The notes beneath the pieces were generated by a model. That model did not search any database, had not been told where the DNA came from, and worked only from the letters and a program-made list of their open reading frames with translations. From positions 1-24,344 of IMG/VR virus record IMGVR_UViG_3300021091_000412: DNA of 24,344 nucleotides, one strand, 5' to 3'. The translations under genes and the position numbers were made by a program. This document shows, in pieces, positions 2,854 through 23,992 of this stretch; position 1 is the stretch's first letter; each line of letters opens with the position of its first letter. The stretch is from a virus.

Positions 2854-3126
2854 TTATTCTTCAGTATTCAGAGTGAGGTCCATCATATTTCCTCCTTCCT
2901 CTGCTACCTCTTTTTTATTGATCAACTCATAAATCTCTTTCTTGATTTCCTTAATTGCATCAATATATTCTTTTAGTTTCTTTTTGTTATCTGGAGAAAG
3001 ATTGTAGATTCTTTCTTCAATAGTAGATTTACCTTTAACAGGAACAACTTCCTCGGTTTTAGGCATATCATCTTCCATCAAAGACTTTAGCTTCTTACTA
3101 TATTCTACTGGATTCAAATAGTTCAT
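2854..3126 (-). CDS. Hypothetical helical charged protein, 90 aa
   Basis: Not recognised. Strongly charged and predicted helical. The central part (about 35-72) is a Lys/Glu/Ile-rich stretch (NKKKLKEYIDAIKEIKKEIY) with heptad-like spacing, so a coiled coil is likely. The C-terminal tail is Gly/Met/Asp/Thr rich. Its ATG overlaps the stop of the upstream zinc-binding ORF by 4 nt (ATGA), so the two are translationally coupled. Confidence 0.65.
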   Translation of the reverse strand: MNYLNPVEYSKKLKSLMEDDMPKTEEVVPVKGKSTIEERIYNLSPDNKKKLKEYIDAIKEIKKEIYELINKKEVAEEGGNMMDLTLNTEE

Positions 3127-3341
3127 CGTGATACTTTATCATAAATATTTGACATCTTAACTAATTTCTTAGCCACCTCAGGATCCTTGATAACATGAAC
3201 TTCAAAGTCATTCTTTGATCCTGCTGCAATGATACCACTATACCTCTCGGCTGTGGAATGGTTAACGCAGGTCGTACTATATCCTAATTGAACTCTTTTT
3301 GGGTGGATCTTTTCACCACATACTTTACAATACTTTGTCAT
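3123..3341 (-). CDS. Small zinc-finger-like protein, 72 aa
   Basis: The N-terminus carries a probable zinc site C5-x2-C8 ... C25-x2-H28, set in KYCKVCGEKIHPKR. This resembles the CxxCGxxIxxxR start of DksA/TraR-type and other small treble-clef zinc fingers. The rest is a short alpha/beta segment with no other motif. A DNA- or RNA-polymerase-binding role would be a guess. The ATG has a perfect AAAAATAAAAGTT leader, and the gene is coupled to the downstream coiled-coil ORF by a 4-nt overlap. Confidence 0.65.
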   Translation of the reverse strand: MTKYCKVCGEKIHPKRVQLGYSTTCVNHSTAERYSGIIAAGSKNDFEVHVIKDPEVAKKLVKMSNIYDKVSR

Positions 3342-3365: not shown

Positions 3366-3830
3366 CTACCAACTTGATTGATAAGAATATTCTTGATCCT
3401 TAGCACCATCTTCTGATAGTACTTCCTCTAACATTCTAACAGTATTCTCTACATCATAGATATAATGTTCATCATACTCTGTTGAACCAAAGAAGAAACC
3501 TCCTTGAGTAGGTAGAAGTTCTGACGCCTTACTTTTATCTTTTAAGACCTTATTACATACATTAACAAGCTCTTCAAGTTTATAGATGGGTACACGATAT
3601 TCTCCACAGTCGTCTATCCCTTTCTGGATATTCTCAACGAACCATTGGTGAATGTGGTTTGCCTTTCTCCAATAGGCAACTTCCTCTACTACTTCTTTGA
3701 TGCGCTTTTGCTTGATAGCAGGATGAGGCTTACCGCCCTTAGTTACTTCAACTGCTTCTCTCTCATTCTGATTAACATAGTCTCCTGTAAAAAGAAATGA
3801 CTTTTTATTTAAATACATGTCTAATCCCAT
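3366..3830 (-). CDS. Conserved phage-type protein (MGLDMYL family), 154 aa
   Basis: The N-terminal MGLDMYL followed by a YWRKANHIHQWFV segment (about 73-85) matches a family seen in many phages and some prophage-bearing bacteria, to my knowledge without assigned function. The middle has a helix ending in NVCNKVLKDK, then a GGFFFGSTEYDEHY loop (about 110-123) and a helix VENTVRMLEEVL (about 127-138). Length and motif order look complete. The start is preceded by AAAATAAAGGTTATG, the recurrent leader. No membrane segment or signal peptide. The family identity is from recall of the motif, not a search. Confidence 0.75.
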   Translation of the reverse strand: MGLDMYLNKKSFLFTGDYVNQNEREAVEVTKGGKPHPAIKQKRIKEVVEEVAYWRKANHIHQWFVENIQKGIDDCGEYRVPIYKLEELVNVCNKVLKDKSKASELLPTQGGFFFGSTEYDEHYIYDVENTVRMLEEVLSEDGAKDQEYSYQSSW

Positions 3831-3859: not shown

Positions 3860-4144
3860 TTAGTCGTCTGATTCGTCCTCGTCTTCATCAGAAGCTTCAC
3901 TATTTAGATACTCCTCTAGAGTATCGATATAGTCTTTCATTTCATCTAAAGCACCTTCTGTAAATGTGTCAGAGTTTCTTGAGCACAGATCTTTCAGCTC
4001 ATCTAAAATGTAAGACAAAGCATTAGAATTCTGTCTCTCTAAATTTTTTCTAGTGTAATTGTAGATAGTGTTATCAAACTGTTCGGCAACTGCCCAACCA
4101 TGATTCTTGTAAATAACCGCATGCGCGATGTCAATAATATGCAT
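3860..4144 (-). CDS. Hypothetical protein with acidic tail, 94 aa
   Basis: Not recognised. It has a small helical body and ends in a run of Asp/Glu/Ser (last 14 residues almost all acidic). The N-terminus (IDIAHAVIYKNHGW) is mildly hydrophobic but too short for a membrane segment. Acidic-tailed small proteins in phage accessory regions sometimes mimic DNA or bind host proteins; here this is only a possibility. Leader AAATAAAGGTTATG. Confidence 0.65.
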   Translation of the reverse strand: MHIIDIAHAVIYKNHGWAVAEQFDNTIYNYTRKNLERQNSNALSYILDELKDLCSRNSDTFTEGALDEMKDYIDTLEEYLNSEASDEDEDESDD

Positions 4145-4162: not shown

Positions 4163-4357
4163 TTAACTAAACAAATAACTCTTCTGATTCCAAGTACCGT
4201 TCTTGTATGTCTCGATAACGTAGTCACCATTGTACTTCCTGTTCTCTCTTAATACTAACCAAACTTTCATACCGTCTTCCTGTATCTTAAGCTCGTCTCC
4301 GTCCCATGCCTGTTCTATTGTCTCTAGATTCTCTAATTCTCTTTTTGTGTAGTTCAT
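4163..4357 (-). CDS. Hypothetical protein, 64 aa
   Basis: Not recognised; a small alpha/beta protein with several Trp and Tyr residues and the central stretch KVWLVLRENRKYNGDYV. Two in-frame ATGs lie 6 nt apart (4363 and 4357). I chose 4357 because it completes the recurrent GGTTATG leader seen at 3830 and 4144; the alternative adds only Met-Val. This is the first gene after the first promoter/repeat module (4381-4513), so it probably heads a transcription unit running toward lower coordinates. Confidence 0.6.
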   Translation of the reverse strand: MNYTKRELENLETIEQAWDGDELKIQEDGMKVWLVLRENRKYNGDYVIETYKNGTWNQKSYLFS

Positions 4358-4380
4358 AACCATTTGTTAATTGATATAAG

Positions 4381-4440
4381 TAAAATTAAGACATTCCAGT
4401 GACATAAAAAAATATTTTTACTCTTTTTTTAAAAATTCTC
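4381..4440 (-). promoter_or_regulatory. Putative promoter segment of module 1
   Basis: On the minus strand this reads T-rich/A-rich DNA, then ATTTTTTTATGTC, 12 nt later TAATTTTA (4388-4381), then a short leader to the start at 4357. TAATTTTA matches the Bacteroidota -7 consensus TAnnTTTG except the last base. The same arrangement, with identical 24-nt spacing between the A-rich element and the -7 box, occurs at 5561-5619 and 9280-9339. Conservation of non-coding sequence at three places supports a regulatory role; the exact start site is not determined. Confidence 0.55.
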
Positions 4441-4513
4441 GATTGATTATCAACAAGTTATAAGTGATTGATTATCAATTGGTTATAAGTTATTGAGTAT
4501 CAATTAGTTATAA
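4441..4513. repeat. Operator-like triple repeat, module 1
   Basis: Three direct repeats: 4441-4465, 4466-4490 and 4491-4513, with a 25-bp period. Each carries ATTGA-nnn-TCAA(T/C), a short inverted repeat, followed by GTTATAA. Two units are identical at 22 of 25 positions. The repeats are contiguous, with no unique spacers, and sit directly upstream of the putative promoter at 4381-4440, suggesting tandem binding sites for a dimeric regulator. Confidence 0.7.
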
Positions 4514-4543
4514 AAAGAAAAGCCCGGGTAAAAACCCAGGCCG
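4511..4543 (-). terminator. Rho-independent terminator after HTH gene
   Basis: On the minus strand a GCCTGGGT stem (4541-4534), a 4-nt T loop and ACCCGGGC (4529-4522) form an 8-bp helix with one G-U pair, followed by TTTTCTTTTT. It lies 24 nt after the stop of the HTH gene. On the plus strand the same hairpin (one C-A mismatch) is followed by seven T's, so weak bidirectional activity is possible. Confidence 0.85.
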
Positions 4544-4566
4544 TTTTTTTAGGATGCAACTAACCA

Positions 4567-4821
4567 TTAGACGCCGAAGCTAGAAAGCTTAACAGCGTTT
4601 GATACGCGACCTCGCGTAAGATCGTACAAGGCATTAACCAACTGATCGTTAAAATAATTACCAGCACATACATCAGATACGTGGGTAGTTGAATAACCAG
4701 TAGCTTCTGCTACTTTTGTAATGTCGCCAGTTCTCAATTTACGATTGATACGGCTTACTTTCTGAATGTAGCTCAACTTGTTGTAAGAGCTAGGGCGATT
4801 TGAATTTGTCATAATACGCAT
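4567..4821 (-). CDS. Small helix-turn-helix DNA-binding protein
   Basis: 84 aa, basic. Residues 33-54 (DITKVAEATGYSTTHVSDVCAG) have the spacing of a helix-turn-helix: a helix with Ala at position 5, a Gly turn, then a recognition helix rich in Ser/Thr/His. A second basic helix (about 57-72) and a short tail follow. This is the size of phage Cro-type regulators. The start at 4821 follows AAAAAACAAAA; an alternative ATG lies 9 nt further in (4812). The gene has its own putative -7 box upstream (4848-4855) and a strong terminator downstream, so it is a single-gene unit immediately beside the first operator-like repeat block. Regulation of those repeats by this protein is an attractive inference, not shown. 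Confidence 0.75.
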   Translation of the reverse strand: MRIMTNSNRPSSYNKLSYIQKVSRINRKLRTGDITKVAEATGYSTTHVSDVCAGNYFNDQLVNALYDLTRGRVSNAVKLSSFGV

Positions 4822-4847
4822 TTTTTGTTTTTTAATTATTAACAATA

Positions 4848-4873
4848 TAAATGTAAGACATTATTTTTAATCT
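4848..4873 (-). promoter_or_regulatory. Putative promoter of HTH gene
   Basis: On the minus strand: ATTAAAAATAATGTCT then TACATTTA (4855-4848), a TAnnTTTG-like -7 box. The TGTCTTA-nn-TTTA core recurs at 23570 and, with TAATTTTA, in modules 1 and 3. There are 26 nt between the box and the ATG at 4821. No three-repeat array precedes it. Confidence 0.5.
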
Positions 4874-4907
4874 AATATAATTGATCTTTTTAGTGCAATA
4901 CTTTTTT

Positions 4908-5108
4908 TTAAAAATCATAATCGTCTAACAAATTGTCCTCACTCCAATTGTCAATTATTGGTTGATTCACTTCGGCGTTAATCATGTCTATAAGCTGTTC
5001 AGCTTCCTGTTTAGTGACCCACCCTGAGCCATCTACATCTACTATGTCGCCGATATAATACATGTCGTCGAATTGTCTTAAGTCTTTTAATTTAATTTGA
5101 TATGTCAT
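4908..5108 (-). CDS. Hypothetical acidic protein, 66 aa
   Basis: Not recognised. Acidic (tail NLLDDYDF). The middle contains DVDGSGWVTKQEAEQLIDMI (about 24-43), which has EF-hand-like spacing (D-x-D-x-S-G-W-x-T-x-x-E) followed by a helix; a single calcium loop is possible, but the loop has substitutions and there is only one. Leader AAATAAACAGTTATG supports the start. It lies 7 nt after the stop of the 59-aa ORF. Confidence 0.65.
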   Translation of the reverse strand: MTYQIKLKDLRQFDDMYYIGDIVDVDGSGWVTKQEAEQLIDMINAEVNQPIIDNWSEDNLLDDYDF

Positions 5109-5114
5109 AACTGT

Positions 5115-5294
5115 TTATTTTTTTAAGTGTACTGGAATATATTTCATCGCAAGCTTACCGATAAGGGTATTGATATCGTAAGAGACATTGTACATCTCAT
5201 TAAGCATATCTAAGCTTCTCCTACGTCTCAAGTGCTTTCTAAAGTTAGGACTCTTCATTCGTCCTTGATCTCCAAATTTGTTTACTGTTCTCAT
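5115..5294 (-). CDS. Small basic hypothetical protein, 59 aa
   Basis: Runs from ATG (5294-5292) to TAA (5117-5115). Very basic in the first half, with an Arg cluster (HLRRRRS, about 21-27), then a helical, mildly hydrophobic C-terminal half (LIGKLAMKYIPVHL). The basic helix could bind nucleic acid. The leader AATCAAAGTTATG matches the recurrent GTTATG pattern, and the ORF fills the gap between two other small genes, which supports it. Not recognised as any family. Confidence 0.7.
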   Translation of the reverse strand: MRTVNKFGDQGRMKSPNFRKHLRRRRSLDMLNEMYNVSYDINTLIGKLAMKYIPVHLKK

Positions 5295-5338
5295 AACTTT
5301 GATTTTTTAATTAAAGGAAAAGAACATTAGTCCATGTC

Positions 5339-5536
5339 CTAACAACCGGCCATACGCTCGTTATAGTCATCAATTTCCAATTGCATTTTCCTAAAGGATT
5401 CGTAGTCATATTTGAATTCAGGCCACTTACTGTCATCAGACCATCCGTCTGGGAACATTGGTTCATAATTAGGATTCTGTTGCATGTATTCATCTTGGCT
5501 CATGCTTACCAATTTTTCTAAGTCATTCTTACTCAT
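5339..5536 (-). CDS. Hypothetical acidic protein, 65 aa
   Basis: Not recognised. Acidic, rich in Met/Asp/Tyr/Trp, with MFPDGWSDDSKWPEF in the middle (about 27-41) and a helix at the C-terminal end. It is the first gene downstream of module 2 (5561-5694), 25 nt from the putative -7 box. A competing ORF in another frame (5311-5493) has biased, unlikely composition and no leader, so this frame is preferred. Confidence 0.65.
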   Translation of the reverse strand: MSKNDLEKLVSMSQDEYMQQNPNYEPMFPDGWSDDSKWPEFKYDYESFRKMQLEIDDYNERMAGC

Positions 5537-5560
5537 AATAATTAATTTTAATTTACATAG

Positions 5561-5619
5561 TAAATATACAACAAATTTTTGACATAAAAAAATATTTTTA
5601 GTCTTTTTTTAAAAGTTTT
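5561..5619 (-). promoter_or_regulatory. Putative promoter segment of module 2
   Basis: Minus strand: AAAAATATTTTTTTATGTC, 12 nt, TATATTTA (5568-5561), then ACTATG and the start at 5536. It is nearly identical to modules 1 and 3 in the A/T-rich part and has the same spacing, but the 12 nt between differ (TGTCAAAAATTTGTTG) and the -7 box is TATATTTA rather than TAATTTTA. Confidence 0.5.
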
Positions 5620-5694
5620 TATTGGCAATCAATTAGTTATGTAAGTAATTGATAATCAATAAGTTAGGCAGATTGGAAATCAATAGGTTATATA
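5620..5694. repeat. Operator-like triple repeat, module 2
   Basis: Three tandem units at 5620-5646 (27 bp), 5647-5671 (25 bp) and 5672-5694, each with (A)TTG-n4-TCAAT followed by n-AGTTA or n-GGTTA. The inverted-repeat core is best in unit 2 (ATTGATAATCAAT). The block ends exactly at the stop codon of the 96-aa ORF (5695). The length pattern 27/25 is the same as in module 3. Confidence 0.65.
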
Positions 5695-5985
5695 TTAACA
5701 ACCGTATTTATGCATAAGTTGATCAATTATCTCCTGATCAAACTTATCTATAGATTCTCTATTCTGAAGCTTTTTAATGTAGTTAACATGCTTCTCTATG
5801 ATTGATTTGTCTTGTAGTTTTCTTAGTATTGTAAACTTATACTCTTGAGTAAGTATTTCTTTGAGAATTTGAACCTTTTTTATGTAGTCTTTTTGTTTTT
5901 CTTTTTCATCAAAATGTTGTTTATTTTTATCAGCTTTAACTAGTATGTCAGACATTTTGTTTAAAGAAAATTTATAATAATTCAT
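5695..5985 (-). CDS. Hypothetical helical protein, 96 aa
   Basis: Not recognised. Lys/Glu/Gln-rich and probably all helical (KADKNKQHFDEKEKQKDY, then long helices with Ile/Leu heptads), ending in KYGC. A GTG one codon earlier (5988) could also start, but the ATG at 5985 overlaps the upstream stop by one base (TGATG), the usual coupling here. The gene follows the holin-like membrane protein in the same run and ends where module 2 begins. Confidence 0.62.
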   Translation of the reverse strand: MNYYKFSLNKMSDILVKADKNKQHFDEKEKQKDYIKKVQILKEILTQEYKFTILRKLQDKSIIEKHVNYIKKLQNRESIDKFDQEIIDQLMHKYGC

Positions 5986-6275
5986 CACTCTTGTTTTTTA
6001 ATCATATAGTTAAAGATTGTTTTTTGAAGTGAATTGAGAGCGTCTGTATTTTCTTTAATTAGTTGAGAGAGTCTATCTCTTTCTTCCACTAATAGTTGCA
6101 TCATTTCTTCTTGTAGTTTGTCTACTTTTAATTCTAATGCATCATTCTTTGCTACTAGTCTTTGATATTGTGACCATGCAAAATATCCTAGTAGAAAGGC
6201 TAATAATCCTAATATACCGTATTCCATTAAGTGTGATTCGGTAAATTGTGTGGTAATATTTTGCAGTAGTTTCAT
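5985..6275 (-). CDS. Holin-like membrane protein with coiled coil
   Basis: 96 aa. One clear transmembrane helix at about residues 19-36 (YGILGLLAFLLGYFAW) follows a short polar N-terminus. Then comes a long cytoplasmic or periplasmic coiled coil (about 43-90) ending in ERDRLSQLIKENTDALNSLQ. This layout resembles BhlA/UviB-type and other phage holin-like peptides, whose soluble part ends with a similar xxLIxENTxAL segment. I would call it holin-like, not a proven holin: no endolysin or spanin gene is recognisable next to it. Coupled upstream to the 70-aa ORF (TAATG) and downstream to the 96-aa helical ORF. Confidence 0.65.
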   Translation of the reverse strand: MKLLQNITTQFTESHLMEYGILGLLAFLLGYFAWSQYQRLVAKNDALELKVDKLQEEMMQLLVEERDRLSQLIKENTDALNSLQKTIFNYMIKKQE

Positions 6276-6487
6276 TAATTAAGTGACGAATATTTTTTAA
6301 ACAACAAATCTTCCCAATTATTTGCATAACGCCATAAAGTTTCATATTTTGATTGGATGGCTTTACTTTCTAATAACTCAACCATTATTTGTACCCACGC
6401 GTCTCTTGAATTTATATGTAATATAGGATGTATACCATTAGGTATTTTTGAATCCGCTACTTCATCCAATATATCATAATATAACAT
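6275..6487 (-). CDS. Hypothetical protein, 70 aa
   Basis: Not recognised. Soluble, mixed composition, with three Trp in the C-terminal half and a helix IMVELLESKAIQSKYETLWRYANNWEDLL (described here by its ends, about 34-62). The leader ends in GTTATG. The TAA overlaps the ATG of the holin-like gene by one base. A TAATTTTA -7-like box lies at 6504-6511, 17-24 nt upstream of the start, but has no clear -33 partner. Confidence 0.6.
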   Translation of the reverse strand: MLYYDILDEVADSKIPNGIHPILHINSRDAWVQIMVELLESKAIQSKYETLWRYANNWEDLLFKKYSSLN

Positions 6488-6520
6488 AACAATAAATATT
6501 AAGTAAAATTACTTTAAAGA

Positions 6521-6898
6521 TTAAATATTAAAAACTTCTCTCAAACATTTTTTTGTATATTTCTTGGAAGTCTTCTCAGCTTCTATTTCTAGAGGATTCT
6601 TATGATCAGGTAAATATAGAGATAAAATTTGGTAATGCCTCATATTCTGTTTGTAGTGTGTGTATTCATGTATGATGCTGTTTACTAACTCTTCTAAATC
6701 TGCATGCTTATCTTTAGATACAAATATAATAGATTCAATTTCATCATAGAACGCCATACAGTCTTCTGTGTAATAGTCAGACTTTCTAAACTCTAGAGTA
6801 GGAAAGATTTTGTTAAATTTAGATTTTCCATAAGTCTTAACACACCAATCCAATATCTTTGTGGCATGGTTTCTAGTAATCTTTATTGGTTGTTCCAT
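6521..6898 (-). CDS. Putative HExxH zinc metalloprotease-like protein, 125 aa
   Basis: Carries HEYTH at residues 77-81, preceded by LVNSII, matching the helix of zincin metalloproteases (two zinc-binding His and the catalytic Glu). A plausible third ligand is a Glu in NPLEIEAE (104, 106 or 108) about 25 residues later, as in gluzincin-like and SprT-like folds. The protein is short and lacks a signal peptide, so it would act in the cytoplasm or be a minimal catalytic domain. It starts 2 nt after the stop of a second HExxH protein and is likely co-expressed with it. Substrate unknown; a role in processing phage or host proteins is inference. Confidence 0.75.
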   Translation of the reverse strand: MEQPIKITRNHATKILDWCVKTYGKSKFNKIFPTLEFRKSDYYTEDCMAFYDEIESIIFVSKDKHADLEELVNSIIHEYTHYKQNMRHYQILSLYLPDHKNPLEIEAEKTSKKYTKKCLREVFNI

Positions 6899-6900
6899 AA

Positions 6901-7494
6901 CTAGAGTCCTTCTTGTTCAAATACTGTTTTTATTCTTTTTGGTAATACTGAATAGTCTTTCATAAAATACCTAGGCATCTTTTCTATTATCTTTTGGTTA
7001 TTATATGGACTATTTTTTGGAGTAGCCCATTTTCTGGTGGCCAATAGTCTGTTATAAAACAAAACATAGGCATTAGCCTTTTTTATATATTTGTCAATGT
7101 CTATATCCAGATTGAACTTCTTAATAATCCTGACTGCCCTCTTCTCGTTGTCTAATTCAAGGTTTCGGCAAGTAGCAAGATGTTTCTTTATATTAGGCAC
7201 TTCTTTCCCTTCCAACCATTCATCTACCAAAGGCATTGAGATCATACTTTTCTTCCAGATGTCTATGTTCTTTTTCCACTGCGTAAAGTGACCAAACTCG
7301 TGTGCAAGTATTTCTAATGAGTCTGGTCTATTCATTGAACAAACTAAAGCAGGTTCCTCTTCATCAAAATAGCCGGAACACTTTATATTTCCTGATAGTT
7401 TTACGTATTTAGTTTTTCTGAGATCACATTTAATTCCGTGCTGCTTACATTCAGACTTAACATGTTTTATGAAGTCTTTAGCTTTCTTGTTCAT
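6901..7494 (-). CDS. Putative HExxH zinc metalloprotease, 197 aa
   Basis: HEFGH at residues 65-69 within SLEILAHEFGHFTQW is a canonical zincin active-site helix (short, hydrophobic, His-Glu-x-x-His, Gly as in metzincins and ImmA-type proteins). The helix ELDNEKRAVRII (about 113-124) supplies the probable third ligand. The C-terminal part (YVLFYNRLLATRKW to PRYFM) recalls a small phage family annotated only as conserved hypothetical or putative metallopeptidase. No export signal. It lies directly upstream of another HExxH protein that shares no obvious overall similarity, so the pair is not a simple recent duplication. Confidence 0.8.
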   Translation of the reverse strand: MNKKAKDFIKHVKSECKQHGIKCDLRKTKYVKLSGNIKCSGYFDEEEPALVCSMNRPDSLEILAHEFGHFTQWKKNIDIWKKSMISMPLVDEWLEGKEVPNIKKHLATCRNLELDNEKRAVRIIKKFNLDIDIDKYIKKANAYVLFYNRLLATRKWATPKNSPYNNQKIIEKMPRYFMKDYSVLPKRIKTVFEQEGL

Positions 7495-7521
7495 AGTAGA
7501 CTAATTTAAAGTTGCGGATCC

Positions 7522-7845
7522 CTATGATAAATATGAAGATTTAATCTCATCTATGTGCTTACATGATCTTTTATTTCCTGAAAATTTAAAGGCATAGCAA
7601 TTGCAAGACCAATCATCATCATTCACCTCTACTTTGTACTTTCTTTCATCAGATCCTGAAACTTCCCAATCCATTTGGATCTTAAAGGCTTCATTCTTTC
7701 CTCCTGGATATGGCCTTCTAAACCACATGATGTGATTTCTAGTAGTACCGCTTGGAAGATCTTTTATACCACTATCATCAATAATATGTGATCCAGTTTC
7801 ATCTACCCAAAAGAAGGGTGCTTTGTAGCTGTGAACTATTATCAT
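7522..7845 (-). CDS. SWIM-type zinc-finger protein, 107 aa
   Basis: The C-terminal region has C81-x-C83-x11-C95-x-H97 (WSCNCYAFKF ... SCKHI), the CxCxnCxH pattern of SWIM zinc fingers, which bind nucleic acid or protein in transposases, kinases and helicase-associated proteins. The N-terminal part is beta-rich with several Trp/Phe/Pro residues and no other motif, so this is a stand-alone SWIM domain with a small extra domain. Stand-alone SWIM proteins are known in phages. Its ATG overlaps the stop of the upstream ORF by 4 nt. Confidence 0.75.
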   Translation of the reverse strand: MIIVHSYKAPFFWVDETGSHIIDDSGIKDLPSGTTRNHIMWFRRPYPGGKNEAFKIQMDWEVSGSDERKYKVEVNDDDWSCNCYAFKFSGNKRSCKHIDEIKSSYLS

Positions 7846-8069
7846 GGGTTAATCAATTTAAACAATTTCCTGTAACCTAGAAAACCTAAGTCCTCAGTTC
7901 TAGTGAATAGTTTATTGAAGTCATATTGCTTGTTCATAGTATGAGCAACCTCATCAATATAAAACTTCTCTACTCTACTTCCTACTTTAAACTCTTTACA
8001 CCATTTATTGATGTCCATAGTTCTGTCTGGTACACACGTACTTTTAATCTTAAGTTGTTCGTTTGTCAT
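7842..8069 (-). CDS. Hypothetical protein, 75 aa
   Basis: Not recognised. Basic and polar, with KSTCVPDRTMDINKWCKEF at about 9-27. I start it at the ATG at 8069, because that codon overlaps the upstream TGA in an ATGA arrangement and because longer versions would read into the preceding gene. It is coupled at both ends by 4-nt overlaps, so expression must be tied to the 60-aa ORF before it and the SWIM protein after it. Confidence 0.65.
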   Translation of the reverse strand: MTNEQLKIKSTCVPDRTMDINKWCKEFKVGSRVEKFYIDEVAHTMNKQYDFNKLFTRTEDLGFLGYRKLFKLINP

Positions 8070-8248
8070 AGTTTTTCTATTTCTTGTTTTACTTCTTCCC
8101 AATACATTTTATCAAAGGAATGCGCTTTTATTATCTCATCTACTGCTATTAATGCGCATTGTTTAGATTCGTACCATTCAGCCTTTGAACTTGGTATTGC
8201 ATTACAAAATAAAATATGTAATTGTTTTGCTTTTTCTTTTGATGTCAT
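8066..8248 (-). CDS. Small conserved phage-type protein, 60 aa
   Basis: A short helical protein of the kind AKQL...CALIAVDEII...YWEEVKQEIEKL, a pattern I recall as frequent in phages of Flavobacteriia and relatives, always unannotated. The central KQCALIAVDEIIKAH helix and the C-terminal amphipathic helix are the most conserved-looking parts. Leader AAATAAACAACTATG. Function unknown; the recall is not backed by a search. Confidence 0.68.
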   Translation of the reverse strand: MTSKEKAKQLHILFCNAIPSSKAEWYESKQCALIAVDEIIKAHSFDKMYWEEVKQEIEKL

Positions 8249-8254
8249 AGTTGT

Positions 8255-8617
8255 TTATTTTTTGTAGCCAAAACGTTTAGTGTCGTCATGCTCTCTGAAT
8301 GAGTACTCGATTCTAACCATCTTCTCAAGAGTCTTTTCTTTGATGACTCCGGTCTTACGATCTTCTATCATAACCTGACCGATACCTTCATATATGTCAA
8401 GGTCTACGGTATCATAATACTCTTCAGCCTCTTCTAACGTATCAAAGACTTTAGTATTTGTATCATTATGGTTGTAGCCATCTATCAATATTGATTCAGT
8501 ATCTCCAAACTCATCTACTTCATAGTAATAAGGACCTGATGTTACAAAGAACATATTTGGATCTTGTCCGTCTCCTACTAACTCTCTAGCTAATTTTTGT
8601 GCTTCTTGATTTGTCAT
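8255..8617 (-). CDS. Hypothetical acidic protein, 120 aa
   Basis: Not recognised. Starts MTNQEAQKLAREL, then a Tyr/Asp/Gly-rich beta region (YYYEVDEFGDTES, about 30-42) and a helix LEEAEEYYD. The ATG at 8617 sits exactly at the end of the recurrent leader AAAATAAAAGTTATG, which decides this start over upstream in-frame codons. The acidic, Tyr-rich composition is shared by its neighbours at 8637-8999. Confidence 0.68.
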   Translation of the reverse strand: MTNQEAQKLARELVGDGQDPNMFFVTSGPYYYEVDEFGDTESILIDGYNHNDTNTKVFDTLEEAEEYYDTVDLDIYEGIGQVMIEDRKTGVIKEKTLEKMVRIEYSFREHDDTKRFGYKK

Positions 8618-8636
8618 AACTTTTATTTTAAATTGA

Positions 8637-8999
8637 TTAATAACATATAGCATCACGTGAAAGGAAGTTCTCTTCAATGAGCTGATCTATCTGACGCTCA
8701 ATCTCATCATCTTCATTACACATAGAAGGACACCCCTTGTACCACTTATTGACATAAGCGTTCCAAGACATACGACCCTCGTCGTAAGCAATCTCGTCCC
8801 TCTCCATATTAAGAGGAGGAGTGCAGATGAAGTTGTTATCATCCACAAAAAAATTCACCTGACAATCAGGATATGCTCCTCTGAACACATTGTGATTGTT
8901 CTGTACTGTCTTCCAGTCACTAGTAACCTGTATCTGACTGTCAATCTCTACTTCATTCGTAAGGAAGTTGATAACTTTAATCTTAATATTCATATTCAT
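8637..8999 (-). CDS. Hypothetical protein, 120 aa
   Basis: Not recognised. A beta-rich N-terminal half (KIKVINFLTNEVEIDSQIQV) is followed by a loop with Cys, Asp and Trp residues and an acidic C-terminal helix ending SRDAICY. The start at 8999 follows AAAATAAAAGTT and has a second ATG two codons in; upstream codons to 9020 are rejected because they would swallow the leader. Four Cys residues (DCQVNF, ICTPP, GCPSMC) could bind metal but are irregularly spaced. Confidence 0.65.
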   Translation of the reverse strand: MNMNIKIKVINFLTNEVEIDSQIQVTSDWKTVQNNHNVFRGAYPDCQVNFFVDDNNFICTPPLNMERDEIAYDEGRMSWNAYVNKWYKGCPSMCNEDDEIERQIDQLIEENFLSRDAICY

Positions 9000-9009
9000 A
9001 ACTTTTATT

Positions 9010-9255
9010 TTATTCTTCAAAAGAAAAAATTACTACCTCCGATAGAACATTTAGTGCTTTTATTTTTATAATATTTTTCTTAAATAAATGCATTAGTTCT
9101 GTTTCTCTAGTTCCGTATACCCAATGAAACAGAAGATCATTAACAACCTCTGCGTAAATACATGGATCGTTTCTCATGTCTTCTAAAGTCTCATCAAACA
9201 TTTTTTTAATTTCTTCTGTTCTGTCTACGTAATTAATGTCTAAATATGGATTCAT
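9010..9255 (-). CDS. Hypothetical protein, 81 aa
   Basis: Not recognised. Helical, with an acidic N-terminal half (RTEEIKKMFDETLEDMRND) and a hydrophobic, Lys-rich C-terminal end. It is the first gene downstream of module 3 (9280-9414), 24 nt from the putative -7 box, with the leader GAATAAAAGTTATG. Being led by one of the three repeated modules, it is likely co-regulated with the genes at 4163 and 5339, though the three proteins are not visibly similar to each other. Confidence 0.65.
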   Translation of the reverse strand: MNPYLDINYVDRTEEIKKMFDETLEDMRNDPCIYAEVVNDLLFHWVYGTRETELMHLFKKNIIKIKALNVLSEVVIFSFEE

Positions 9256-9279
9256 AACTTTTATTCGTTTGATACATAG

Positions 9280-9339
9280 TAAAATTAAGACATTCCGTCG
9301 ACATAAAAAAATCTTTTTAGTACTTTTTTAAAAATTGTC
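9280..9339 (-). promoter_or_regulatory. Putative promoter segment of module 3
   Basis: Minus strand: TTTTTAAAAAAG, CTAAAAAGATTTTTTTATGTC, 12 nt, TAATTTTA (9287-9280). The last 18 nt before the end (GGAATGTCTTAATTTTAC) are identical to module 1, and the spacing is the same as in modules 1 and 2. The TAATTTTA box fits the Bacteroidota -7 element with one mismatch. No canonical -33 TTTG is evident; a phage-specific factor could replace it. Confidence 0.55.
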
Positions 9340-9414
9340 GATTGAAAATCAATCAGTTATGCAAGTGATTGAATACCAATAAGTTATAAGTGGTTGAAAA
9401 TCAATGAGTTATTT
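9340..9414. repeat. Operator-like triple repeat, module 3
   Basis: Three units at 9340-9366 (27 bp), 9367-9391 (25 bp) and 9392-9414, each with (A/G)TTGA-n3-(T/C)CAAT followed by n-AGTTAT. Unit 1 core is ATTGAAAATCAAT. The third unit overlaps the last codons of the HNH-like gene, including its TAA stop at 9409-9411. Confidence 0.7.
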
Positions 9415-20579: not shown

Positions 20580-20798
20580 TTATTTTATAGATTCAATTAA
20601 ACTAGAACCTGTATAGTACGTATTGTACTGTTCGTGAATAGTTTGTCTAAAACTAGAGTCTGTAAGATACATGTATATGGCTCTTTCAACTATATCTTGT
20701 AAGTTCATTTTAGTTTTAATTGATGTAACTTTGAAATCTTCGTACAGAGTCTGCGGGATCTTAACCGATGTTATAACTCTTTTTGTTTTATTAATCAT
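20580..20798 (-). CDS. Ribbon-helix-helix (CopG/Arc-like) protein, 72 aa
   Basis: Residues 6-47 (KRVITSVKIPQTLYEDFKV ... LQDIVERAIYMYL) have the ribbon-helix-helix plan: a short basic strand with alternating VxSVKI, a P-x-x-LYxxF helix start, then the second helix LQDIVERAIYMYLTD. RHH proteins bind DNA as dimers and often autoregulate. No toxin gene is adjacent, so a toxin-antitoxin role is unlikely; a transcription repressor or accessory factor is possible. A 59-nt AT-rich gap separates it from the nuclease gene upstream. Confidence 0.75.
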   Translation of the reverse strand: MINKTKRVITSVKIPQTLYEDFKVTSIKTKMNLQDIVERAIYMYLTDSSFRQTIHEQYNTYYTGSSLIESIK

Positions 20799-23569: not shown

Positions 23570-23595
23570 TAAATGTAAGACAAAATATTTTTAAT
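23570..23595 (-). promoter_or_regulatory. Putative promoter upstream of 23556 gene
   Basis: Minus strand: TTAAAAATATTTTGTCT followed by TACATTTA (23577-23570), the same TGTCTTACATTTA core as at 4848-4873. The -7 box is TAnnTTTA, one base from the Bacteroidota consensus. It lies 13 nt before the ATG at 23556, leaving a very short leader. No triple repeat is attached. Confidence 0.45.
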
Positions 23596-23918: not shown

Positions 23919-23920
23919 AG

Positions 23921-23992
23921 TAGTCTCGAAGAGAATCGAACTCTCGTTTGAAGAATGAAAATCTTCCGTCCTAACCATTAGACGACGAGACT
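23921..23992 (-). tRNA. tRNA-Glu(UUC)
   Basis: 72 nt on the minus strand. All arms fold: acceptor AGTCTCG/CGAGACT, D arm GTC-TAATGGTTAG-GAC, anticodon arm GAAGA-TTTTCAT-TCTTC with anticodon TTC, short variable region, T arm GAGAG-TTCGATT-CTCTT, discriminator A. CCA is not encoded. It reads GAA and GAG codons, useful for the acidic-protein-rich phage genome, but that link is inference. Confidence 0.93.

Follow-up and report, generated by a model that had tools for sequence, protein, structure and literature searches.

To our knowledge, transcription control in large Bacteroidota phages has been little described. Promoters of the Bacteroidota primary sigma factor start transcription 5 to 8 nt downstream of their -7 element. 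At the E. coli rrn P1 promoter, Fis sites and an UP element lie upstream of a strong core, with the nearest Fis site near -71, and P2 Ogr and P4 Delta use a promoter site near -55. IHF at Mu Pe and Fis at rrn P1 serve as models for a host protein bound upstream of a promoter. The Bacteroidota primary-sigma consensus consists of a -33 TTTG and a -7 TAnnTTTG and has been given as TTTG/TANNTTTG (PMC6847099). The late promoters of P2 and P4 carry a palindromic upstream site, TGT-N12-ACA, and their Ogr/Delta activators have the cysteine motif CX2CX22CX4C (PMC3931495). Halovirus HF2 is reported to have intergenic repeats carrying promoters (PMC8707807).

Here we describe three control regions in an uncultured Bacteroidota phage (IMG/VR record IMGVR_UViG_3300021091_000412; the window is the whole stretch analyzed, 24,344 nt) that share one layout, a host-type promoter with three stacked near-palindromes. 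Our literature searches, incomplete in their coverage, returned no description of such a module or system.

Layout of the modules

A sequence-only reading had reported three copies of one non-coding module in the window, and all three were found where it had placed them. The correct reading strand is the minus strand, on which nearly all the neighboring genes lie. Read in this direction (5' to 3'), a module begins with the repeats, followed by the A/T tract, TTTTTTATGTC, 12 nt, TAnnTTTACT, and ATG, and each module contains three copies of ATAACTnATTGATnnTCAAT with 24 to 27 bp between centers. The TAnnTTTAC boxes occupy positions 4380-4388, 5560-5568, and 9279-9287, and TTTTATGTC occupies positions 4401-4409, 5581-5589, and 9300-9308.

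4380..4513, minus strand: module 1; sites centered at 4498, 4473, and 4448, then A/T tract, TTTTTTATGTC, N12, TAATTTTACT
5560..5694, minus strand: module 2; sites centered at 5678, 5654, and 5627, then A/T tract, TTTTTTATGTC, N12, TATATTTACT
9279..9414, minus strand: module 3; sites centered at 9399, 9374, and 9347, then A/T tract, TTTTTTATGTC, N12, TAATTTTACT
4521..4542, minus strand: intrinsic terminator of the HTH gene, directly upstream of module 1
4163-4363, 3860-4144, 3366-3830, 3123-3341, minus strand: module 1 operon
5339-5536, 5115-5294, 4908-5108, minus strand: genes behind module 2
9010-9255, 8637-8999, 8255-8617, and further genes, minus strand: genes behind module 3

The palindrome centers are spaced 25+25 bp in module 1, 27+24 bp in module 2, and 27+25 bp in module 3, and module 2 has lost one base between its two distal units. 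The unit lengths given earlier (25/25/23, 27/25/23, and 27/25/23) captured the tandem triplets and were slightly off in their exact values. Each module does precede a different small gene, as had been claimed (4163-4363, 5339-5536, and 9010-9255, all on the minus strand). Family searches returned no clear match for the first of these genes and none for the other two, and no relatives of the phage were found among sequenced phage isolates, either by DNA or by the HTH protein.

The core promoter

TAnnTTTA is the predicted -7 element of a Bacteroidota primary-sigma promoter, and the module core is, on this sequence likeness, a putative form of the -33/-7 promoter. TAnnTTTA, one mismatch from TAnnTTTG, is present in all three modules. 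Some 20 bp upstream of the -7 element lies a candidate -33 element, T-rich or TTTG: the diverged group-B relatives show an unambiguous TTTG-N20-TAnnTTTAC in the corresponding place, and the window modules have only TTTT. The phage promoters differ from the bacterial one in the last base of the -7 element (A, not G), in an extra segment, TATGTC or GTTTC, immediately below -33, and in the addition of one to four upstream palindromes. A scan for E. coli-type sigma-70 promoters gave no excess over shuffled sequences. The TAnnTTTA and TATGTC segment had been regarded as belonging to the module, an assignment that does not survive comparison, since the same core occurs in many other phages without the repeats. 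The new part is the repeat array; the core promoter is of an already known kind.

Placement and conservation of the palindromic site

The repeated site is a 27-bp near-palindrome, ATAACTnATTGATnATCAATnAgTTAT, present in one to four copies per promoter. Copies inside genes are few, as a regulatory role for the modules had been taken to imply: the window holds 11 TTGRnnnYCAA palindromes, of which 10 lie between genes, with non-coding DNA making up 7.3% of the window (binomial 4e-11). All nine window matches to the full site with at most two mismatches are likewise intergenic, and a reversed-sequence control gave one match. Across nine genomes, 111 of 142 sites (78%) are intergenic, compared with 7.2% non-coding DNA, and reversed-pattern controls across the contigs gave approximately no matches. 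The left half, ATAACnnnTTGRT, has 64 intergenic matches in the array genomes, and the right half-site YCAA is retained in 60 of them, compared with 14 of 26 matches within open reading frames. This retention fits a dimer.

The distance from the promoter-proximal center to the TA of the -7 element is 60, 59, and 60 bp in modules 1, 2, and 3. More widely, these distances show a main peak at 59 to 61 bp and smaller peaks at 50 to 51 bp and at 69 bp; the 60-bp mode dominates the distance statistics, and the 69-bp class comprises few independent cases. Among 50 de-duplicated candidates, 20 fall at 59 to 61 bp and 7 at 50 to 51 bp. Relative to the inferred start, the proximal center lies mostly at about -72, with a minority of cases near -63 or -81, and in dozens of arrays it lies about 80 to 100 bp before the ATG. 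The distance from site to promoter is apparently near-fixed and helix-phased. The spacing of 2.4 to 2.5 helical turns pointed out earlier holds for the 25-bp packing of the repeats, but the distance to the promoter is more informative.

A large group of giant uncultured phages uses this design again and again, at many of their operons. The site was present in all of the first relatives examined, reaching about 38 copies in a single genome, and the three-copy circuit first envisaged, correct for the window, is larger overall, with 2 to 14 arrays per relative. Beyond the module borders the sequences show no relationship, and in group-B phages the layout is retained although the core sequence differs. 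Among 15 promoter-only contigs, 13 lack the site and 2 have a single one-mismatch match, and no tandem site pair was found in 84,980 prokaryote genomes; because the contigs compared are related, the counts of conservation and of co-occurrence cannot be treated as independent. The common design points to a putative shared DNA-binding switch protein. The idea of a dedicated regulatory circuit is borne out insofar as promoter-like modules with their own tandem site are kept across diverged phages. Its companion, a phage-specific activator, is not, since in our comparisons none of the phage proteins follows the sites in both presence and absence, and a single site is also found in Bacteroidota chromosomes.

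A model for the modules

Each module probably serves as promoter for a short operon made up of small genes, with an upstream activator array that would recruit polymerase. The placement of the sites resembles that of class-I activator sites, and by this analogy the array would act as an upstream activator on early-type operons. Host RNA polymerase carrying a Bacteroidota-type primary sigma factor would read the core (-33 TTTG or TTTT, -7 TAnnTTTA), with transcription presumably starting at the modules, and a dimeric protein would bind the one to four near-palindromes, the nearest centered near -72 (sometimes -63 or -81), on the helix face of the polymerase. The bound protein and the A/T tract may then recruit polymerase, by class-I activation or by DNA bending and wrapping, and scattered operons, possibly of early or takeover genes, would be switched on together. 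Upstream sites could also be used for repression or looping. The phage module resembles rrn P1 in its strong core, adjacent A/T tract, and several phased upstream sites, but it differs in sequence and phylum, in its 25-bp direct packing, and in its use at many phage operons. The 25-bp tandem repeats, lying next to an A/T tract, also look like iterons, yet it is very improbable that they are replication iterons or partition sites, or that recombination has spread them: iteron origins are confined to one or a few loci close to an initiator gene, whereas the several arrays of each genome are mostly promoter-linked, at preferred distances from the promoter and the start codon, and neither the module flanks nor the group-B cores are shared.

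Candidate binding proteins

The protein that binds the array may be encoded by the phage, with ZF the first candidate and RHH the next, or may just as well be a host DNA-binding protein; our analysis names three phage proteins and a host protein class as candidates.

3123..3341, minus strand: ZF, a 72-aa protein whose zinc finger is DksA/TraR-like (CX2C ... CX2H), encoded by the fourth gene of the module 1 operon
20580..20798, minus strand: RHH, a ribbon-helix-helix-like protein of 72 aa, ranked after ZF as candidate binder, outside the array operons
4567..4845, minus strand: HTH protein, conserved neighbor between modules 1 and 2

We tentatively entertain a host Bacteroidota DNA-bending or growth-linked activator, whose site the phage would have multiplied, capturing strong host-type transcription. 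A single site followed by TAnnTTTR occurs at about 80 bacterial loci, nearly all in Bacteroidota, and 11 of 28 TAHHTTTG boxes there lie 50 to 52 bp downstream of the site, matching the second distance class of the phages. Several Flavobacterium loci have the whole layout ahead of tRNA clusters, and rpsO is also among the loci, but some of the tRNA loci have RNA-ligase-like and MoxR/WGR-like neighbors, which suggests that these could be mobile or defense loci. In one Microscillaceae MAG, 150 kb of sequence contain 44 extra sites, compared with 0.3 in shuffled sequences; in hosts outside this MAG, however, the site is rare (2 extra in 434 kb), and tandem pairs are missing from all bacterial genomes searched. 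The half-site ATCAAnnnnTTA corresponds to the E. coli IHF consensus WATCAANNNNTTR, which is matched, by inspection, in 8 of 9 window units, and no recognizable HU/IHF protein was found in the phage genomes tested, which sets aside a phage-encoded HU/IHF as the binder. As at IHF sites in phage promoters such as the Mu early promoter, ATCAA-N4-TTA fits this consensus, but the phage site is near-palindromic, occurs in up to four tandem copies, and strongly keeps the other half (60/64), which IHF does not need and leaves unconstrained.

ZF is the family that tracks the arrays best. It is present in 9 of 9 array contigs of at least 100 kb and in 0 of 7 non-array contigs of that size, lies inside an array-headed operon in 9 of 9 annotated genomes, and among its closer relatives (at least 57% identity, plus two at 50%) has sites within about 2.8 kb upstream in 38 of 40 cases; these data also served to choose ZF, and common ancestry underlies the comparison. 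It is nevertheless doubtful that ZF is itself the binder, a small zinc-finger activator that would regulate its own operon and resemble P2 Ogr in function but not in descent. Its more distant relatives (42 to 50%) mostly lack sites, including on a 115-kb contig, and have no obvious substitute tandem palindrome upstream, so that ZF is rejected as a sufficient regulator; sites also occur with ZFs of only about 30% identity. Its match to PF01258 is below the cut-off (E 0.028), its structure model is poor (pLDDT 64), and its finger resembles DksA/TraR, which bind polymerase, not DNA. P2 and P4 likewise have a phage-wide set of operons with a palindromic upstream site and a small zinc-finger protein. 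The phage site, ATTGAT-n-ATCAAT near -72, nevertheless differs from TGT-N12-ACA in sequence, copy number, and distance, and the ZF alignment shows CX2C followed about 16 residues on by CX2[H/C] instead of the Ogr/Delta motif. The broader proposal, a genome-wide regulon in giant uncultured Bacteroidota phages in which ZF would represent a new activator family, small zinc-finger proteins that bind the stacked palindromes upstream of host-type promoters and switch on their own operon, seems unlikely. Less likely again are arrays that act as operators for a phage repressor, for example RHH, later shutting off the early operons. Ribbon-helix-helix proteins bind palindromic or tandem sites, mostly as repressors, and RHH occurs in 8 of 9 large array contigs, is missing at the syntenic position in array-less G033, and has its gene outside the array-driven region. 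Its relatives, however, occur in many site-less contigs, including G048 (155 kb) and G049, which discounts it as a sufficient regulator, and the sites lie upstream of the -33 element without overlapping the core promoter. RHH, with matches to RHH_3 (E 0.014, below the cut-off) and PDB 4aai (E 0.015) and no significant result in a fold search, is a weaker candidate than ZF; structure models gave no significant fold match. The HTH protein is an unlikely binder, being absent from site-rich G014, G018, G019, and G021 and present in two copies in array-less G034 (Fisher 0.15).

Like the phage, halovirus HF2 has a repeated intergenic promoter module across its genome that is kept in relatives (PMC8707807), but it is an archaeal virus, and its published abstract mentions no stacked activator-like palindromes. 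The phage module is a searchable motif and yields a prediction of the operons, comprising dozens of unstudied genes, that would be turned on in concert; it would also give a design for a strong, possibly inducible promoter for Bacteroidota genetics. At arrays L029 2248, L030, L031 10295, L043, and L053, a different repeat region follows, not this promoter at the usual distance.

Three modules join a promoter to an array of palindromes

The window (24,344 bases of an IMG/VR virus fragment, 32% GC) carries nearly all of its genes on the minus strand, and a check of the sequence bore out the sequence-only reading that one module of a promoter and three repeats occurs at three places. The sense of the modules, however, is on that strand. 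Each module runs from three copies of ATAACTnATTGATnnTCAAT through an A/T tract, TTTTTTATGTC, 12 bases and TAnnTTTACT to an ATG 20 to 45 bases further on, and the palindromes are centered as follows.

4498, 4473 and 4448, minus strand: palindrome centers of module 1 (4380-4513)
5678, 5654 and 5627, minus strand: palindrome centers of module 2 (5560-5694)
9399, 9374 and 9347, minus strand: palindrome centers of module 3 (9279-9414)

A terminator directly precedes module 1, and 10 of the 11 TTGRnnnYCAA palindromes in the window are intergenic, in a sequence that is 7.3% non-coding. Two more promoter-like stretches (TGTCTTACATTTA), both without repeats, lie on the minus strand at 4848-4870, ahead of the gene for the HTH protein, and at 23570-23590; a tRNA-Glu (TTC) gene occupies 23920-23992 on the same strand.

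Sequence comparison strongly supports reading the modules as promoters with an upstream tandem array of sites, and positive control of these promoters by a dimer is likely. Because the array operons carry small genes of no assigned role, we infer that they are expressed early. The core promoter itself is ordinary; the unusual part is the repeat array. Scanning IMG/VR for TTTTTATGTC-N12-TAnnTTTACT returned 74 stretches, the majority without repeats, and TAnnTTTA differs by one base from TANNTTTG, the -7 element of the Bacteroidota primary sigma factor (PMC6847099). Seen against four diverged array phages (G014, G018, G020 and G021), whose core position carries ATTTGG...TAnnTTTAC in the textbook TTTG-N20-TAnnTTT form, TTTTTTATGTC makes most sense as a degenerate -33 region with a local addition. 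Core promoters of the form TTTTTATGTC-N12-TATATTTACT are crowded together in two contigs, L073 (125,503 bases) and L087 (72,031): eight copies fall in a stretch of about 4 kb, as two divergent sets, and palindrome arrays are absent.

Spacing and symmetry of the sites

The proximal palindrome center lies 60, 59 and 60 bp from the T of TAnnTTTA in modules 1 to 3, and in other contigs this distance clusters at 59 to 61, 50 to 51 and 69 bp (50 de-duplicated candidates). Placing the T at -12 (PMC6847099) puts proximal centers near -72, -63 and -81, positions that resemble those of class-I activator sites. Helical phasing of the proximal sites is suggested by what are mainly two distance classes, in homologous modules that are not independent. 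The commonest spacing of adjacent centers is 25 bp (29 of the 65 pairs that lie within 110 bp), followed by 26 to 28 and 38 to 40, and in dozens of arrays the start codon is about 80 to 100 bp from the proximal center. When sites were sought by the left half-site alone and the right half was then scored, the right half was kept in 60/64 intergenic matches versus 14/26 inside open reading frames, so the repeat unit reads as a near-palindrome, as for a putative dimer.

In working mode the modules resemble three known pairings of promoter and protein: rrn P1 and Fis, Mu Pe and integration host factor (IHF), and the P2 late promoters and Ogr. A half-site of the phage palindrome is identical to the Escherichia coli IHF consensus, but plain IHF does not fit the conserved second half, and the defining features of Ogr sites and of plain IHF sites were absent from the phage site where tested.

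Distribution of the arrays

The site was present in all nine first relatives searched (reversed-pattern controls, none), and a scan for tandem pairs yielded 33 stretches, in contigs of up to 274 kb. Whole contigs have up to 32 sites at one mismatch (controls, 0 to 1), whereas 13 of 15 promoter-only contigs have none and the other two one match each. In nine genomes, 111 of 142 sites (up to two mismatches) are intergenic by simple gene calling, with 7.2% of the DNA non-coding. No tandem site pair was found in 84,980 prokaryote genomes. The 162-kb relative G003 has genes for a T4-type portal and head protein, for a UvsX-like recombinase and for a DnaB-like helicase, and the array-bearing relatives are therefore large tailed phages. 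Variant modules (L029 at 2248; L030 at 8478, 10291 and 14185; L031 at 10295; L043 at 2793 and 7003; L053 at 10756) have one or two sites, then repeated GAAGAATCTTCAAT-type motifs, and end in another promoter-like sequence (GTTCAAAAATAGTTAGTATATTTA); another repeat seems to take the place of the remaining sites.

Candidate binding proteins

Four candidate binders, namely the HTH, RHH and ZF proteins of the phage and a host protein, were judged by genome comparison. Several site-rich contigs lack the HTH protein (4567-4845), whose gene adjoins module 1, and a site-less contig has it twice. RHH (20580-20798) is found in eight of nine large array contigs, and the array-less relative G033 has a different gene at the syntenic place, but relatives of RHH also turn up in many contigs that have no sites. 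ZF (3123-3341), a 72-amino-acid DksA/TraR-like zinc finger protein, was picked by asking for families present in all six large array genomes and absent from three array-less ones. Among contigs of at least 100 kb, ZF occurs in 9/9 with arrays versus 0/7 others, and it lies within an array-headed operon in all nine annotated genomes; distant relatives were found without sites. Such co-occurrence is weak evidence, because all contigs share ancestry; ZF was also chosen from the same data. With its relatives L401-L438, ZF belongs to a widespread family of phage proteins of about 70 amino acids that have the DksA/TraR-like zinc finger and lack a coiled coil.

As to a host protein, a single site followed by TAnnTTTR was found at about 80 loci in the prokaryote genomes searched, nearly all Bacteroidota. 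TAHHTTTG boxes lie 50 to 52 bp from the center in 11 of 28 cases, versus 3.1 expected from an even spread over the searched range, several loci being homologous. In Flavobacterium, loci with the phage layout, A/T tract included, stand 0.3 to 0.5 kb ahead of tRNA clusters, and the bacterial loci L439, L440, L451, L477 and L478 have the site, an A/T tract and a TTTG/TAnnTTTG promoter before such clusters. Judged by reading the sequence, L451 and L477 neighbor RNA-ligase-like, MoxR-like and WGR-like genes; the Flavobacterium loci beside such genes may differ from the usual tRNA operons of a chromosome, and L451 and L477 are perhaps RNA-repair or defense loci. At one bacterial locus the site precedes rpsO, again judged by reading. 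The site is rare in hosts other than the Microscillaceae MAG Prado074, which has a full palindrome ATAACTnATTGATnATCAATnAGTTAT roughly every 2 to 3 kb (21 loci, L441-L518); 63 of 68 copies are intergenic and gene starts are not favored, a distribution like that of REP elements or of sites for a nucleoid protein.
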